A DNA stretch of 64,000 nucleotides from Dermatophagoides farinae (lineage: Eukaryota; Arthropoda; Arachnida; Sarcoptiformes; Pyroglyphidae). The stretch covers positions 2,667,501 through 2,731,500 of the forward strand of contig NC_134683.1 in assembly GCF_024713945.1 (NCBI RefSeq), read 5' to 3'. The position numbers and the translations under genes were made by a program. This document shows, in pieces, positions 42,835-63,216 of this stretch; positions within the stretch are counted from its first letter, which is position 1; every line of letters starts with the position of its first letter. The notes beneath the pieces were generated by a model. The model was not told the DNA's origin, searched no databases, and saw only the letters and a program-made list of their open reading frames with translations.

Positions 42835-45800
42835 TTATTGCTGAATCACTTGTTGTTGTGGCTGCGATTGCGATTGCGGTTGCGGTTGCTGTTGATGTTG
42901 TTGTTGTCCAACAATATTATCATTGTATTGAGATGTCTGTTGTTTACATACATTCGTATTATTGATTCGTGTTGTTGATATACTGGAAGTGGCCGTAGTC
43001 GAAATGTTTCTTCCTACTGGATTCGATGCAAGCTATCAATATATCAATATAATGATTAAATCCAATTGTAATTTGATATGAATTATTATTATTATTATTG
43101 TAACATACTTCACCCAGCATCTGTAATGGTGTTGTATGTGTTGTTTTGGCAATTCGTTGTTCAACCAGATAGAATATATATTCATCGAATAATAATCTTA
43201 TCAGATGAAATGATCCAAATGATTGTGCCGATCGTAATGTTAAATCACGCATTACAAGTGAACTGTAAGTGAAATGAATTTTTTTTTTTTTCATAAACAC
43301 ATGATGAATGACATGATATATTGATAATAATTACCTATAGAATTCCCATTTGAAGAAAAATTGTTTGGCTGTACTATTATTGTGATTTGAAAGGCTCATA
43401 TTCAACACATCTTCACACCAATAAGCCCAACGATCGTATGGACATTGATCGGATAAAAAGCCCTAAATTTGATTTATTGAAATTTTTTTTTCACTTATTT
43501 AATAGTAACATATAGAAAACATACCTTGAAGCTTGATTCGATTTGATGTACAATCTCTTCATTACATCCGCAAACCCAGGATGCTTGTTCCTTGTTTGTT
43601 TTGATTAAACATCATGGATGATTATCATTAATATTAAATTAATCAAAATCAAAAACAAGATTGCATCATCATCATCACAACATGATGATGATGATGATAA
43701 TGTGGGTGAATATAACATAACATACCTGAACATTTTTAAAGTCTACTTTATTTAGATCGTTAATCATTTGTAAAACTTGTTGCTGATTTTTTAACACTGC
43801 ACATGCTGCTGTCGATAAATGATTCAATGATGTATAACGTCGAAGCATATGGCTTAAAGCACTAACCGCCGATGTTTTCATACGTATAAATTCATCTAAA
43901 AATGTATATCATCATTGATTGATCGATTAATGATCATTCAAACCACAATGAAATGGAAGAGAAAGAAAAAACATTAAACGTTCAAAGTTCGATATATATA
44001 TATATTAATAATTTTTGTATGCACTAACCGGAATAACCTTGTAAGGCATTGATCATCCATTTATTAATACATTTGGCAAAATTTCTAATCTGTTGTGTTA
44101 ATATTTGTGGTATTGGTTTCAATAGATTTGGTAACAATAATGTTGATAAAATTGAATTATACATTGTATAATCAGTTTGAGCGATCCAATTGGATATATC
44201 GGTTTTAGTTATTTCACGTAATGATTGTAAACTTAATTGTTGTTCAATATCATTATCAATAGAGGTATTTGGTGGCTGCCAAAATGATAACCATATATTT
44301 TCTACCTCTTGGAAGCTTAATTCGGATAAGGCCTGAATGATTTTATCATAATGAATACGATAACTTTTGAAAAATAAATTTGATCTTTTCTGTAATTCAT
44401 CCTGTTGCTGCTGCTGTTGCTGTGGACTATCTTGTTGTGGCCAAACAGAATCCATTAATTGTCTTGAATCACCAAGATATGATTGCAATGTTTCTTTCGT
44501 TGCAGACATATTTTGTAAATCATTTATGGCATTCATATTGCTATTATTATTACCGTTGTTGTTGTTGTTGTTATTGACTTTCGGATTATTATTGTTGCTA
44601 CTGTTGCTATTATTATTATTCGATGAAGCATGATTTATTTTTGATCTTTTCATCGGTGGCATCGTATTGTTTTCCACTGCACCATTATTATTATCATTCA
44701 ATGGTGAATTGGTTTTCACTCGAATTCCATAATAATGATATTTTGAATTGCCTAAAATTTAAAAAAAAAATTAAAAAATTAAACTTCATTTCTCATCACC
44801 TATATTCATATACTCATATTACCTCTTGTTCCCAATCGTCTAGTACGAAGACCAACAAATACCGAACGTATCAATTTACCAAATGATGCTGCATTCACTG
44901 GTTCCATATTATTTGCCTGGCAATGTTGTTGATAATGTGAATAGAGCGTTGATCGCGGAAGTGAAACTCCTGTTGATAAAGAAAAATTCAATTAAGACAT
45001 CAAATGTACATGAACATATTAATTCTGTTCATTCAAAGAGAAAAAAGAAAGAAAAAAAACATCAATTACCATCAGCTGTCTCGTAGTTTTGTAGCAACCA
45101 GGTAACCTATTTATACAGATATAAATATATATAAATGATCAATTATAATGATGATTTATATTAAATTAATGATTGAATATTTTCATACTTACAGTCTGTG
45201 GTTGAACAGAGATTCGTGTTGGTTGTTGATATGATGATTTATTATAATCAACATCAATCTACAATGACAAATGAATGATTTTGTATCAATAATTTTTTTG
45301 TTCTTGATAATACTTACTGATATTGTATCACGATGAGACATAAGGCCATTATTCGGTATTGTTTGTGATGGTTGTTGTTGAGATTGTGATTGTGAATGCG
45401 GTGGTGGTGGTGGTGGTGGTGGTGGTGGCTGTTGATGATGCGTTTGATTCATTGTATGATGATCATTGACTGTAGCGACTGTTGCTGCTGCTGCTGCTGC
45501 TGTTGATGCCGCAACTGTTGGATCCATCACAACATAACCATCGGGTAAAGCGGTTGCATAATATGCACCATGTGTATATGAATCAGTAACATAATATGTA
45601 GCCCTATTTTTATTATTAAAAAAAAAATTTCAATTTGTTATATAAATTCATTCGTTTTTTTAAAAAAAAAAGATTCTTACATTTGTCCAGCTGAATTTGT
45701 ATCATTTGGATAATTATAATCTTCATATGATGTATGCTGTTCAGCAGCGGTAGCAACAACAGCTGCATTATTATCTGTGCCATCAGATTCTAATTGATTT

Positions 45801-52390: not shown

Positions 52391-53026
52391 TCATATTTTG
52401 GATAATGAAAATTTTGATTCCTGTTCCTGTAATCGTTTCATTTTTCCGGACATTTTAATACCCAAACGTGCAGCTTTATGACAGGTTATATTATCATTTT
52501 TGGCGTATATCACATTAAAATCTAATGATGATTGTTTAGAATATTTACATTTTTTCTTTTCATCAATCATTATCATTTCATGTTTTTGCATTTCCATCTC
52601 TTTATCGTCGATTTCTTTACATTGTTTCTTTTTTCTTTTTTTCTTGTTACATTTTTCATCTTTGATTTGTTCATTATTATCATCATGAATTTTGTTCAAT
52701 ATCGTTCCACCGCTTACGAAATGTTGATTATAAATTTCATTTTTTTCTTCAAGATTTTCATCACCATTTAAGCCGGATTTTGTTTTAACAATCACTCCAA
52801 CTGATGTGATTTTATATTCAGGTTTTAAACCTTTACTAGCCACATTATAAGCTTCTGCCCACCATTGGTTTTTGATCTGTAGCGAATCGGCTATGCTGAA
52901 TCCGAGGCCACGAGTATCCATTTGAATATTTGGAACAATAGGTTTGACGATACCATTCTCTTCAGCACCTAATCCTTTACCTTCGCTCCAGCCCATATTC
53001 TTCATTTGTCGTTTGGCAAAATCCAT
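52391..53026 (-). CDS. GPATCH4: G-patch domain protein 4 (GPATCH4), DHX15-type helicase cofactor
   Basis: Single exon, 211 residues. The G-patch occupies the N-terminus (residues 1-45: [20 protein letters not shown], then NGI), with the conserved glycines present. The follow-on QWWAEAYN block matches human GPATCH4 HWWNELFN. The C-terminal [20 protein letters not shown] closely matches human [20 protein letters not shown], which makes the GPATCH4 assignment specific rather than just any G-patch protein. A lysine-rich middle (KKKRKKKQ) is a likely nucleolar localisation signal. The family activates the DEAH helicase DHX15 in nucleoli and Cajal bodies and affects rRNA/snRNA modification. The protein is about half the human length because the long repetitive KKKKR tail is missing. 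It shares a short divergent promoter with METTL14. Confidence 0.9.
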   Translation of the reverse strand: [211 protein letters not shown]

Positions 53027-53317: not shown

Positions 53318-54714
53318 ATGGCATCACCTTTATTAAATCAAATCAAGGAGAAATCCAAACGTCGACGAAAACTTTTAGCCCAACAGGTTGTGACAACATA
53401 TATAACTTAAAACTTAATATTTTTAAAATTTGGAACTCGTTCTCATTCCTCTGACATTTTCATAGTTTGGCCTCAAGAATGTCGATAATTTACCTAAAGT
53501 TCTTGGCTTCGATGATGAACGTAAAGCATTCCAATTGAGCAGAAAATGTTCATCAGTTCGAAAAGATCTTGGTGATTCGAAAACTCGAGTCCATCATAAA
53601 TCTAGCAATAATGATTTATGTCCAGATTTACTTGGCGATGTAGCTGATGAAGAAATCACCTATACAGATTCTAGCACCTTTCTAAAGGTAATATTCAAAG
53701 AAAAAAAATCATATTTAGTTTTAACTTTTTTGGCTATTCTTTTTTTTTGTATAGGGAACTCAATCTGCCAATCCTCACAATGATTATTGTCAACATTTTG
53801 TTGACACTGGTCAGCGGCCACAAAATTTTATTCGTGATGTAGGACTCAATGATCGATTCGAAGAATATCCTAAACTTAAAGAATTGATTCGTTTAAAAGA
53901 TGAACTTATTCAAAAAACGGCCACTCCACCCATGTATTTAAAATGTGATCTACGAAAGTTTGATCTCATTGAATTGCAAGCAAAATTCGATGTTATACTT
54001 ATTGATCCACCATTAGAAGAATACAAAAGAACAAATGGTGTTACTAATGTTGATTTTTGGTCATGGGATGATGTTAGTAAACTTAAAATTGAAGATATTG
54101 CAGCACCACGATCATTTATATTTTTATGGTGCGGTTCATCTGATGGCCTAGATCTTGGACGTGTTTGTCTTCGTAAATGGGGTTTTCGTCGTTGTGAAGA
54201 TATTTGTTGGATCAAAACAAATATCGACCAGAAAAAGAAACATGCAAAAAATCTTGAACCAAAAGCTATATTTCAACGTACCAAAGAACATTGTCTTATG
54301 GGTATTAAAGGAACTGTAAGACGAAGTACAGATGGTGATTTTATCCATGCTAATGTTGATATCGATCTCATCATTACCGAAGAATTTGAATATGGAAGTT
54401 TGAAAAAACCGGATGAAATTTATCATATTATTGAACATTTTTGTTTAGGTAGACGTCGTTTAAATTTATTTGGACGTGATGATATTATTCGTCCTGGATG
54501 GCTTTCAATAGGTCCAGCATTAACCAATAGTAATTTCAATGCTGAAACTTATCATAGTTATTTCGATGGTTCAAACGGAAATCTAACCGGATGTACAGAA
54601 CGGATTGAAATATTGCGGCCAAAATCACCACCACCAAAAGTGAATAAAAATTCCAATTCATCCATACGATCAAATTCACATTATTCGGTACCTAGAAAAA
54701 TTCAACGCCAATAG
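53318..54714 (+). CDS. METTL14: METTL14, RNA-binding subunit of the m6A methyltransferase
   Basis: Three exons, 53318-53386, 53466-53687 and 53755-54714, all joined in phase 0; 416 residues. The N-terminal KLLAQQ motif, [36 protein letters not shown] and the MT-A70 core match METTL14 throughout: [85 protein letters not shown]14 is catalytically inactive; it stabilises METTL3 and grips the RNA substrate in the nucleus. Two oddities appear. The usual EPPL is DPPL here (Asp at about residue 181). The C-terminal RGG/RG tail is absent: after RPKSPPPK only about 25 Ser/Asn-rich residues follow. The start codon gives an N-terminus similar in length to human; the ATG at 53277 is out of use because it stops quickly. 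Identification is very secure. Confidence 0.96.
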
Positions 54715-54927: not shown

Positions 54928-56011
54928 ATGGTTCCATTATTAAAATTAGGATTAACATTGGTTTCGCTCATCATTGTTGAATTGATCGCTGTCGTTGAAT
55001 CGAATACAACGATGGTATCATTTTTGGCCATAAATTATGGAACGATTATCATTCCAGATGTAAGTGTTGTTGGTAAAACAAAAATTGTCAAAATTTTCAA
55101 TTCTAATTCGGATTGTTATTTAGGAAAAATGTGAACAAATTGTACAAAAAGATATTGAAATTTTAGCAATCATTGTAACAAAGAAAAAAATCTTAATATT
55201 AACCAGTGATTATCATGTATTTGATTTATCGGCAAATTTTTATGATTCAACAACAAATACTGTTAATTTATTTCAAAAATCAACTTTAATGTCTGATAAA
55301 TATCCAAAACTATGGCTTGATTCGAAATTTGATAGCATGAAATCCACATTCAAAGATGTACGTTTTATTATCGATCATAAAAATGATATTTGGCTATGTT
55401 TTTTAACACCATTTTTGGCTCCAAATTCTGGTATCAATTATAATGTTTACAATGGTGAAATTGTGGATGGTTGGCATCAACAAAAACATGATGCAGAAAT
55501 ATTCATTTCAACTGATATTGATTCTTATCAATATGTTGTACGAACAAATGAAGGCATTAAATTCAATATGATAAATACGATATCAAAAAATTCTGATAAT
55601 GATGATTATTATATTAATAAACGATTCTCAACTGTATGTAAATATTTCGACAATGCTGATAGTAAAATTTATTTTAAACAATTTTCACCATATGAAAATT
55701 GTGAAAATAATGGCCATTTTGATGTTGATTGGTCAATAATCAATGGTTTTGTTACCGATGGATTTTTTCATATTGTCACAACAAAAGGTGTATTGATATT
55801 TAAAGAACAAATTTTCCATCGACAATTTACACCATTTCCAGTGAAACAACGATCATTACAGGAATTTTTTCTATGTTCAATTCCTGTTCCAGTTTATCCA
55901 ACGAAATCATTTTTCTGGCTTATTGCCATTTTAATCATCATATTAATGTTGTTGTTTTTTATAATGTTTTTGATTATAATGGACGGAAAATCACTTAAAA
56001 CCACCAAATAA
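54928..56011 (+). CDS. Unrecognised single-pass membrane protein, paralogue A (tail frame-broken)
   Basis: Exons 54928-55059 and 55124-56011, joined in phase 0 across a 64 bp intron; 339 residues as read. A hydrophobic start (LLKLGLTLVSLIIVELIAVV) looks like a signal peptide. A roughly 260-residue extracellular part follows, with cysteines in EKCEQ, WLCFL, TVCKYF, ENCENN and FLCSIP, then a transmembrane helix near residues 306-330 (FFWLIAILIIILMLLFFIMF). Repeating strand-like units of hydrophobic, turn and aromatic residues, such as DVDWSIINGFVTDGFFHI, faintly resemble beta-propeller or hemopexin blades; that is a weak inference. The same layout and several motifs recur in the next gene. The frame stops 11 residues after the helix, but the next frame stays open for 126 codons with tail-like composition, so the true protein is probably about 455 residues. 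Function unknown. Confidence 0.75.
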
Positions 56012-56360
56012 ACATCGACATCATGAGAGAATATCATCATCATGCAAACAAAAACCATCATCATCGAAAAGAATTTCTAAATTTTCAAAAGAATCACAAC
56101 AACAACAACAAAAACAAGATCTGCCAATAAGTTCAGCATTTTCAAGTAGTTGTCCAAGCAAAAATGATTCCATTCAATCATTTCGAATGGATTCGAAAAA
56201 TTTGAAAAAAATTGAAACAATTTCTAGCCGATATTTGCCAACAAATCAAATTACATCGAAGCAACAACAACAACAATCATCATCATTTAAAATTCCATCA
56301 TCATTCATAATTATGTATCCAAAACCAAAAAAAAAACAACAACAACACAGTAGCCTATAG
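55980..56360 (+). other. Probable continuation of paralogue A: cytoplasmic tail in the +1 frame
   Basis: From 55980 a frame offset by one base from the upstream exon stays open to a stop at 56358-56360. It encodes a Lys/Ser/Gln-rich segment that starts HLKPPNKHRHHER and includes KNDSIQSFRMDSKNLKKIE. Paralogue B has a tail of the same kind directly after its helix (NQRRHHRQKSRE, then MDKNSSIIQKSAKFSS). No GT/AG pair can bridge the frames. One extra base, for instance in the A-run at 55987-55990, would explain the break. It could be an assembly error, a real allele, or decay of the tail. Confidence 0.6.
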
Positions 56361-56422
56361 AAAAATATCGAAATCGAGAATCTAATTAATTATTCATTAA
56401 ATTAAATTATAAAAATTTGTCC

Positions 56423-56428
56423 AATAAA
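56423..56428 (+). terminator. AATAAA polyadenylation signal for paralogue A
   Basis: AATAAA 63 bp after the extended stop at 56360 but about 410 bp after the in-frame stop at 56011, and only about 40 bp before the next start codon. The position favours the longer reading of paralogue A. Confidence 0.45.
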
Positions 56429-56466
56429 AAATCCAACACGACCAAATATTGGTGATTATATCGAAA

Positions 56467-57735
56467 ATGTTTTTATTAAGCGTTTCAAATCAATTCATCA
56501 CAATGATAATGTTGGCTATGATCATCATCATCATCACCATTGCCATCGATTCAACAACATGCACTGTACATGATTTAATTTGTGAATCGATTAAAAATAC
56601 CAGTGATCATGATGATACATTTGACATATTGAATGTTGGTGTTACTAGAGAGAAAATTATTTTGGTAACAAAAAAATGGTTTGTCTACGAAATGGACATT
56701 AATTCAATGAAAGATGGTAAATTATATCTGAATGTATTGCCTACACCGGCATCGGCTAAATTTCCATACCTATGGAGTTATAAAAGATTTCAAGATATCA
56801 AAGATAAAATTACCGATGTACAAATATTTATGGATGATGAAGGCGATTGGTTATGTTTGGTGCCAATATTTGATTATGGAATCGGTTATCATATTGATAC
56901 AAATGAAATAATTGTCATTACTTGGTTTATGAGAAATAATAGCATTGAAAATGAACGATCAATTGGAACAATGGAATCATATCGTAATTATATATTTCGT
57001 TATATTAGATTTGATATTACAGCTAAAGCAATACAGATTAATAAGGATTCAATCAACGGTACTATTGGTGTTCGAAATACAAAAAGAATTCATATTGTAA
57101 ATTTATGGACTTATATTTGTTTAACATCGGATAATAAAATCGTTATACAATATGGTTTTTGTCAAAATTATGGCCTACAAACAGTTGATTGGGATATACA
57201 GGGTGGTTTTGTTGTCAATGAACAATTTTATTTACTCGGAAAAGATAATGTTTATTCATTTTCTGAACAAGCATATTTGAAACCGAATCAATCATTTGCT
57301 TATAGTAAACAAGATTATCGATCATTTATTTATTGTTATGGTGAAATTGATTCATTACCATTTAATAGAATTGTTCGTATTATATTCATCATTATAATAT
57401 TGTTGTTGATAATATTGGTTATTTTATTATTCATAAATATAAATCAACGTCGCCATCATCGACAAAAATCTAGAGAAATTCTTAAAGTAAAAGTAGCAAA
57501 GAAACCACCACCACCACCACCACCTTCACCATCAAAAGCAGTTAAGCAAACAAAACAACAACAGATTAAAAGTAAAATATCAATGGACAAAAATTCTAGC
57601 ATAATTCAAAAAAGTGCAAAATTCAGTTCTATAGGCACTATGCGATCGGAAATTGGTAAAATACCTGTGCCAGTAATATCTCGCCAATCAAGTAGTATGG
57701 AAAAAAGTGCAATACAAAAGTCAAAATTTTTTTAA
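56467..57735 (+). CDS. Unrecognised single-pass membrane protein, paralogue B
   Basis: Single exon, 422 residues from the ATG at 56467. An N-terminal hydrophobic stretch (ITMIMLAMIIIIITIAI) is a likely signal peptide. The extracellular part is about 280 residues and shares with paralogue A: a KFPYLW / KYPKLW motif, a DVQIFMDDEGDWLCLVP / DVRFIIDHKNDIWLCFLTP block, and a VDWDIQGGFV / VDWSIINGFV block followed by an F-x-E-Q segment. A transmembrane helix lies near residues 301-323, then a basic tail of about 100 residues with a proline run (PPPPPPPSPSK) that could bind SH3 or profilin-type domains. NGT and NQS sites suggest N-glycosylation. B has no counterpart of A's intron. I recognise no named family; it may be lineage-specific. 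Its start lies about 107 bp after A's likely stop, so the two look like a tandem duplication. Confidence 0.85.
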   Translation: MFLLSVSNQFITMIMLAMIIIIITIAIDSTTCTVHDLICESIKNTSDHDDTFDILNVGVTREKIILVTKKWFVYEMDINSMKDGKLYLNVLPTPASAKFPYLWSYKRFQDIKDKITDVQIFMDDEGDWLCLVPIFDYGIGYHIDTNEIIVITWFMRNNSIENERSIGTMESYRNYIFRYIRFDITAKAIQINKDSINGTIGVRNTKRIHIVNLWTYICLTSDNKIVIQYGFCQNYGLQTVDWDIQGGFVVNEQFYLLGKDNVYSFSEQAYLKPNQSFAYSKQDYRSFIYCYGEIDSLPFNRIVRIIFIIIILLLIILVILLFININQRRHHRQKSREILKVKVAKKPPPPPPPSPSKAVKQTKQQQIKSKISMDKNSSIIQKSAKFSSIGTMRSEIGKIPVPVISRQSSSMEKSAIQKSKFF

Positions 57736-61067: not shown

Positions 61068-63216
61068 ATGTTTTGTTATCATTGTCCACCGACACTTACT
61101 ACGACTGGTTCAACAGGAACTGCTACGGCTGTATCAACTGGACCAACACATACACATCATCATCATCAACATCATAATCATCACCAACAACAACAACAAC
61201 AACAACATTCATCAACAATCACAACAACATCATCTGTTTCAGCGGCGGCAGCAGCAGCTGCGGCAGCTGCGGCAGCCGCTGCTGCTGCAATGTCAAATAC
61301 AAGCCTTTCAACATTATCGACACTTTATTCGGCTGCTGGTGCCACAACATCACAATGTAAGTAAACAATAATTCAAAATGGGAAAGAATGGTAATAATTA
61401 AATTTTGTAACAAAAAAAAAATCGTTTCATCATCAAAAAATGAATTAACGGGAATTTTCCTGTCTTAATGCTATTAAACGGGTAGTGAAAAAAAAAATTT
61501 AATTGAAACTTCAATGAATCCATCAGCTCATCATCATCATCATCTAGGACAGCAAAATCTTTTGATGATGACAATGAAAATATGAACATATCAGGTTACT
61601 ATAGTTTGCAACAACAACAACAACAAAAAAAATTTCTCAAATCAAGTGCAAAGTTTATAACAATAGTTTTTGTTCAACAAACAAACAAATCAAAAACAAG
61701 AAATTTAAGATGCTTAAAAACAAATTGATGATAACAGAAATGATGCTGATTGCATCATGTTTTCCGAAATGAATGATTTTTTTTTTGAAATTTGATCCAC
61801 TTGATGATTGTGCATTCTTTGATTCTTATTATTATTATGAGATGGAAAAAAAGCAGCAGAGAATGGAAAAAATTTAATTTAATTTAATTTTTTCTCTTCA
61901 TTCTTTCCATTGAATAATAATAAAAAAAAATATTCCACATTGCCATCATGATGATGTTGATGATGATGTTGGTTTTTATTTTTTATTTATTTATTTATCG
62001 ATTTTCGTCATGATCATCATTTTTTTGCAGATTCATCATTCAACTCGGTATATGGTTCCAATGGTGATGGACCGGATGAAGCATTTATTCGTCGAAAACA
62101 GCGAAGAAATCGTACAACATTCAGTGTACAACAATTGGAAGAACTTGAAAAAGCTTTCGCACAAACACATTATCCAGATGTGTTTACCAGAGAAGGTTTG
62201 ATGATGATGATGATGATAATGACAATATTCAGGATTCTGGTCAGGATTTTTAATTCTTTTTTTTTCTTTTTCTTTTTGTTTTGTTGCTTCACATAATAGA
62301 TTTGGCAATGAAAATTAATCTGACCGAAGCAAGAGTACAGGTTTGGTTCCAGAATCGGCGAGCAAAATGGCGTAAATCAGAACGACTTCGAAAAGAACGT
62401 GAAACAAATGGCAATCATGATGATGATCATCTACTTGATATGGGATCACAATCACCAACCATCAATATAGATGTAGCATCAGCTGAAATGACATCAACAC
62501 CTAGTACAAGTCCAGATCCAATTGATTTAAAAGATCATGATCGATTATTAATAGCCGATGATCATCATCATTTATTGATAAGAAATAAAATTAAATCCAA
62601 TAATGAAAATCATCATACCACAAATAATAATGATACATTACCAATCAAACATAAACAATCAAATTTTCCGATAAGTTCATTGATTGCAAATACTAATAAT
62701 AATCGTACTAATAGTAATAGTAGTAGTAGTGGTATAAATGATTTTGGTCCATCATCATTCATTTCATCGATTAAACATCCATTCTATCAAGGTGGTGGTG
62801 GTGGTGGTGGTGGTGGTGTTCATTCATTATTTGATCGAAGTCCATTTTTTCGTGAAATTTCAATGTCTCCACATTTTTCAGTTCCAACATTTAATTCAAT
62901 TCAAAGTTCATTATTTGCTAGTGCTTTTAATGCTACTGCCAATGAAAAGTAAGCAAAACTATATATAGATTCTTAAGTTTTTTTGTTATTTTATTCTTTT
63001 TTTTTTCATTTTTAGGCCTGGATTTAGTCCATCAAATTTGGACAATATGTTGAATGCTGCAGCTATGGCAGCTGTAACTGGACATCATAATTCTGCTTGT
63101 TCAAGATTTTCGGCCACTATACCACCATTGTTCATGACCACAACAACAACGGCATCACCACTATCATCAGCACATACGCCCACCACCAACAACAATAATG
63201 GTCAATCATCTACACT

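Follow-up and report, generated by a model that had tools for sequence, protein, structure and literature searches.

What are the two adjacent genes, here called A and B, at 54,928 to 57,735 of a 64,000-nucleotide stretch of the Dermatophagoides farinae genome (NC_134683.1, positions 2,667,501 to 2,731,500; hereafter the window, GC content about 30%)? A preliminary description, made from the letters alone, took them for a tandem pair of type I membrane proteins, possibly undescribed and belonging to no recognised family. We propose, with moderate confidence, that A and B belong to a large, tandemly expanded family of mite type I membrane proteins with a four-bladed, hemopexin-like propeller, and that they are perhaps male-biased receptors.

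Gene A (54928-56011, +) consisted of two exons with a product of 339 residues, and gene B of one. The signal peptides and transmembrane helices of both were called from hydropathy alone: in A, an N-terminal 19-mer from residue 5 scored 2.40 and a transmembrane stretch from residue 311 scored 3.63; in B, the corresponding 19-mers from residues 10 and 305 scored 2.71 and 4.08. The common plan that had been described was present in both genes as far as the hydrophobic N-terminus, the ectodomain of about 260 residues and the single transmembrane helix were concerned. The basic tail was found in B (about 97 residues, net charge +19) and not in A, where about 10 in-frame residues preceded the stop at 56009-56011. 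The two ectodomains aligned above chance, as had been supposed, with 27% identity over 259 columns (expectation value E = 2e-19 for this single comparison). When the three motif blocks said to be shared were inspected, the first and third occurred in both proteins; the second, as it had been written, occurred in neither (A, DVRFIIDHKNDIWLC; B, DVQIFMDDEGDWLC, with a one-residue gap).

When the genome (62.4 Mb) was searched with gene B, 14 further loci, gene A included, were recovered at E<=1e-4. A profile of 15 ectodomains revealed a 16th member, on C2, with E 1.3e-24 in a small set of open reading frames. Divergent members used as queries returned seven more complete ectodomains and a partial one. 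Five of these seven matched the 16-member profile at E 1.9e-12 to 2.7e-7, and the remaining two matched it weakly, at 0.0027 and 0.014, again in the small set. The 16- and 7-member profiles, the seven having been chosen as hits, matched each other with a probability of 96.7% (E 3.3e-10, 237 columns). In all, the genome carries a minimum of 16 clear members, with A and B among them, and seven more divergent ones; these counts are lower bounds, and five further candidate places, along with several weaker ones, lie outside them. Seven members stood in tandem on C3 between 6382.7 and 6406.8 kb, four on C8 between 1642.7 and 1652.1 kb, and at least four places on C6 within 4691-4718 kb. A protein-kinase-like frame, recognised by eye (HRDLKPSNILF..DFGLS), adjoined a divergent member on C6 at about 4717.9-4719.0 kb (L075 1647-2699, -).

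Gene B was 36% identical to two of the C8 genes, and gene A was 29% identical to one of these two. A private tandem duplication of A and B was rejected, the two being 26% identical and neither being the nearest relative of the other. Because B is closer to the C8 genes than to A, the two are not a recent pair, and the "tandem pair" has to be replaced by a larger family in which A and B are not sisters. No subfamily history is claimed, since the 16-member tree had one starred branch of 13.

The members followed a common gene plan. Nine of the 12 on C3 and C8 were read as three exons carrying the signal peptide, the ectodomain, and the transmembrane helix plus tail, respectively. Gene B and two C8 members (L025 3348-4649 and L026 2771-4174) were single-exon genes, and A lacked the second intron. 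By reading, the donor that closes the first exon of gene A (GAT/GTRAGT) was the same in nine paralogues, whose first intron likewise follows the signal peptide. Four cysteine columns were conserved in 22, 23, 23 and 23 of 23 members, the exception being row L026, whose sequence had been cut just after a cysteine. A hydrophobic 21-mer of at least 1.98 followed the ectodomain in all 16 tabulated members, and 15 of them, B included, had tails of 93-180 residues with a net charge of +7 to +25 and 20-38% Ser/Thr. The pattern [KRN][ST]xRS occurred in nine of the 16 tails, those of A and B being without it (shuffle mean 2.3; as many in 0 of 1000 shuffles). Four of the nine carriers are the close copies C3d-g, and the significance is overstated because the pattern was picked after viewing the tails; the motif was therefore kept out of the explanation.

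Amino-acid change within the C3 cluster was concentrated in one segment. In the pairs e-f and d-g, 109.2 of 185 non-synonymous differences (59%) fell in 77 of 262 alignment columns, a 77-codon segment chosen after an earlier look had revealed the pattern; the highest value in 10,000 permutations was 93.8. Synonymous differences in the same pairs were not clustered (p 0.64). The segment begins shortly after the WIC motif and ends shortly before the cysteine at position 181 of the B ectodomain, and its counterpart in B includes ectodomain positions 141-180, where the 16-member family is least conserved. The pN/pS values were 0.308/0.256 in the middle and 0.090/0.175 in the flanks, with Fisher p values of 0.003 for the pooled pairs, 0.005 for e-f and 0.074 for d-g. 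Treating e-f and d-g as disjoint pairs depends on a weak e-f grouping (92/96), mosaic copies having no single tree. The tandem copies on C3 are mosaics: identity between d and g (6398.5-6408.0 kb) was 96% across the signal exon and intron 1, fell to 60-61% over residues 98-173 and rose again to 95% over residues 216-258. Silent change between d and g was also greater in the middle (0.376 vs 0.190). Because of this silent excess and the mosaic copies, two processes are probably at work: change at the protein level in the middle, and exchange or conversion in the flanks. The segmental clustering and the mosaic copies are new here, and together they fit a diversifying recognition receptor.

The absence of a named family, noted previously, was borne out in the Pfam and PDB sequence searches. 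Pfam searches with one, 15 and 23 members gave no credible match, and no Pfam family matched more than one member. Isolated low-scoring Pfam hits, of which Cupin_2 was the best (E 2.5e-4, in one of 23 members), were taken as chance. Nothing credible came either from PDB sequences, searched with a single sequence and two profiles, or from bacterial and viral contigs, for which the member C3g served as query. PF00045 detected three other loci with hemopexin repeats in the genome and PF02191 one other gene, with no family locus in either search.

A small beta-propeller of hemopexin-like topology, the fold suggested earlier, is the best structural lead from the low-confidence models. For two AlphaFold2 models of low confidence, built from one shared two-sequence alignment, structural re-ranking placed four-bladed chains of hemopexin fold at the top, within ties. 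A Foldseek search with the first model gave a best E of 2.9e-3, with none below 1e-3; by reading, most placeable titles were WD40 or PQQ propellers, and no hemopexin was among the 50 matches listed, a result that supports a propeller only. Self-comparison for internal repeats gave a single match, a weak one between the first and last strands (P 0.13), from which no blade count could be taken; the models support four blades weakly. The 16-member profile scored against hemopexin above all shuffles (0 of 100 and 0 of 60 as high), at a probability of only 2%, whereas 4 of 60 shuffles scored as high against olfactomedin and 13 of 60 against YWTD. With the 23-member profile, the counts were 0 of 30 for hemopexin, at a probability of <=2%, and 5 of 30 for olfactomedin. 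The seven divergent members alone gave 11.1 for hemopexin, 14.5 for olfactomedin and 20.0 for YWTD. The three target profiles held 5, 4 and 1 sequences, respectively, and the MMP-14 row of the hemopexin set carried one extra mistyped residue; the hemopexin scores were not used as proof.

The hemopexin domain is about 195 residues long, and a cysteine pair joining its first blade to its last is a defining feature. The family resembles this domain (PF00045, also found in matrix metalloproteases) in the fold ranked first, within ties, for both low-confidence models and in having a cysteine near the domain start and another at its end (columns 22/23 and 23/23), the pairing being predicted. It differs in lacking a Pfam match, in its very weak sequence similarity and larger domain (about 260 residues), and in being membrane-anchored, with a tail and no protease. 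The olfactomedin domain (PF02191) is likewise an extracellular propeller of about 250 residues (246 positions in the Pfam model); however, the score against it was no better than that of shuffles, and it was absent from the Pfam matches of the 23 members.

The nearest parallel by description is 4BetaP, a D. pteronyssinus family of at least 119 genes that was reported as new and named in 2025 (PMC12105342); no other report of the family name and fold was found in the open-licence PMC literature. According to that report, the general plan is an N-terminal transmembrane helix followed by an extracellular four-blade propeller (AlphaFold), by one or more further transmembrane helices and finally by a tail of variable length, putatively disordered, and expression is 2.7- to 429.7-fold higher in males (PMC12105342). 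Two C. elegans germline proteins are stated there to be structurally similar to 4BetaP (PMC12105342); the C. elegans germline proteins Q22625 and Q19393, and also C45G9.5 (PDB 9l35), count by description among the closest known systems to the family described here. A and B both have the N-terminal hydrophobic helix, the transmembrane helix past the ectodomain and no other recognised domain, and the tail length is matched in B and 14 other members and not in A. Both families, as far as the published description goes, are multigene families of astigmatid mites with the same order of parts, the propeller being predicted in ours. Male bias and the AlphaFold four-blade prediction are features of the D. 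pteronyssinus family, to which ours is likened by description only, and its at least 119 genes contrast with the 23 ectodomains aligned here. By this analogy A and B are probably 4BetaP-type genes, and the family to which they belong had probably been described already.

Immune receptors also show clustered amino-acid change and exchange between tandem copies. The pattern on C3 would accordingly suit pattern-recognition receptors or surface receptors of the gut or cuticle, immune or diet-facing, whose variable segment binds microbial or dietary ligands. We regard this as quite improbable, as the sole expression record for the architecture is male-biased (PMC12105342), and Pfam recognised no immune domain in the 23 ectodomains. 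The difference in gene number, and a likeness to 4BetaP drawn from description rather than sequence, would be compatible with a separate receptor family that reached a similar plan by convergence or from very remote ancestry and is not male-biased. This is unlikely in our view, given that the order of parts, the multigene organisation and the lack of any other domain are shared with 4BetaP as published, and that our member counts are lower bounds.

Diverged hemopexin or matrix-metalloprotease ectodomains still binding haem or matrix would account for the re-rankings of the low-confidence models and for a 16-member profile score that no shuffle reached, unlike those for olfactomedin or YWTD; such a function is very improbable, as the hemopexin model found none of the family loci, the profile probability was low and the seven divergent members gave no such signal. 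Gene A raises a further alternative. A Ser/Lys/Gln-rich frame of 126 codons (55980-56357) lies just 3' of its transmembrane helix, and 5 of 1000 dinucleotide shuffles of 55980-56440 held a frame at least as long; this out-of-frame stretch may be a frameshifted tail, a polymorphism or an assembly error. Gene A might be a decaying copy with its tail shifted out of frame, leaving B alone as a working receptor, and its short in-frame tail beside this frame, set against the long tails of the other 15 tabulated members, points in that direction. However, the ectodomain and transmembrane helix of A are intact and the assembly may be at fault, so that decay is a possible but not the favoured reading of this gene.

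Features of genes A and B, in window positions
Feature	Positions	Strand	Description
Gene A exon 1	54928..55059	+	44 codons ending in phase 0; signal peptide / N-terminal hydrophobic helix
Gene A intron 1	55060..55123	+	64 bases; GTAAGT...TTTAG; placed after signal peptide
Gene A exon 2	55124..56011	+	up to stop at 56009-56011
Gene A ectodomain	55127-55906	+	in exon 2
Gene A variable-segment counterpart	55409..55630	+	matches variable middle segment of C3 cluster
Gene A transmembrane helix	about 55922-55978	+	in exon 2
Ser/Lys/Gln-rich open frame	55980..56360	+	stop included; 3' of gene A transmembrane helix; in a frame other than that of A; possible shifted tail
Gene B	56467..57735	+	single exon; one open frame; 422 residues
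Gene B ectodomain	56578..57369	+	264 residues; proposed hemopexin-like beta-propeller; core cysteines
Gene B variable-segment counterpart	56866..57111	+	matches variable middle segment of C3 cluster
Gene B transmembrane helix	57379..57435	+	19-residue core
Gene B cytoplasmic tail	57436..57732	+	basic; Ser/Lys/Pro-rich

In the genome as a whole, the best of seven PF02221 hits, two of which were read, matched Der p 2 and Der f 2 at about E 1e-30 while being identical to neither. Other genes were recognised in the window. An MT-A70 methyltransferase domain (53884-54711, +; E 5e-59), presumably that of METTL14, lay immediately upstream of gene A, and a G-patch domain protein was found at 52394-53026 (-; E 8.3e-12). 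An RFX BCD domain (PF25340, E 1.8e-26) at 44027-44719 (-), set in Asn/Gln-rich sequence, marked an RFX-type regulator. At 62281-62949 (+), a homeodomain match confined to the C-terminal part (model positions 30-57, E 2e-11) probably represents one of the late exons of a homeobox gene.

If A and B are receptors of the expanded mite family proposed here, the N-terminal and C-terminal cysteines would close the propeller ring by a disulphide, the conserved first and last parts would hold the scaffold, and the variable middle part would be presented to ligands or partner cells. The basic, Ser-rich cytoplasmic tail may couple to kinases or the cytoskeleton. With expression as in D. pteronyssinus, the proteins would be male-biased receptors for recognition or adhesion, plausibly carried by developing or mature sperm; both the expression data from that species and the pattern of change lead us to favour recognition by male germ cells. 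A speculative and rather doubtful extension is a recognition system of the male gamete (or male accessory tissue) in astigmatid mites, an array of propeller receptors in which the middle blades diversify but the first blade, the last blade and the basic tail are kept. The hemopexin-like propeller, here removed from its customary protease or serum context, would diversify through point changes and through exchange among tandem copies, and such arrays, were the gamete reading true, would set mating or species compatibility. The genome of this astigmatid mite, one of a group behind allergy and mange, holds a large, membrane-anchored, fast-changing, receptor-like family that has no Pfam model, and the 16- or 23-member profile can be used for scanning other mite genomes. 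The same plan as in D. pteronyssinus, together with change concentrated in one segment of a tandem cluster, turns a list of expressed genes into a testable idea about fertilisation or recognition in mites.
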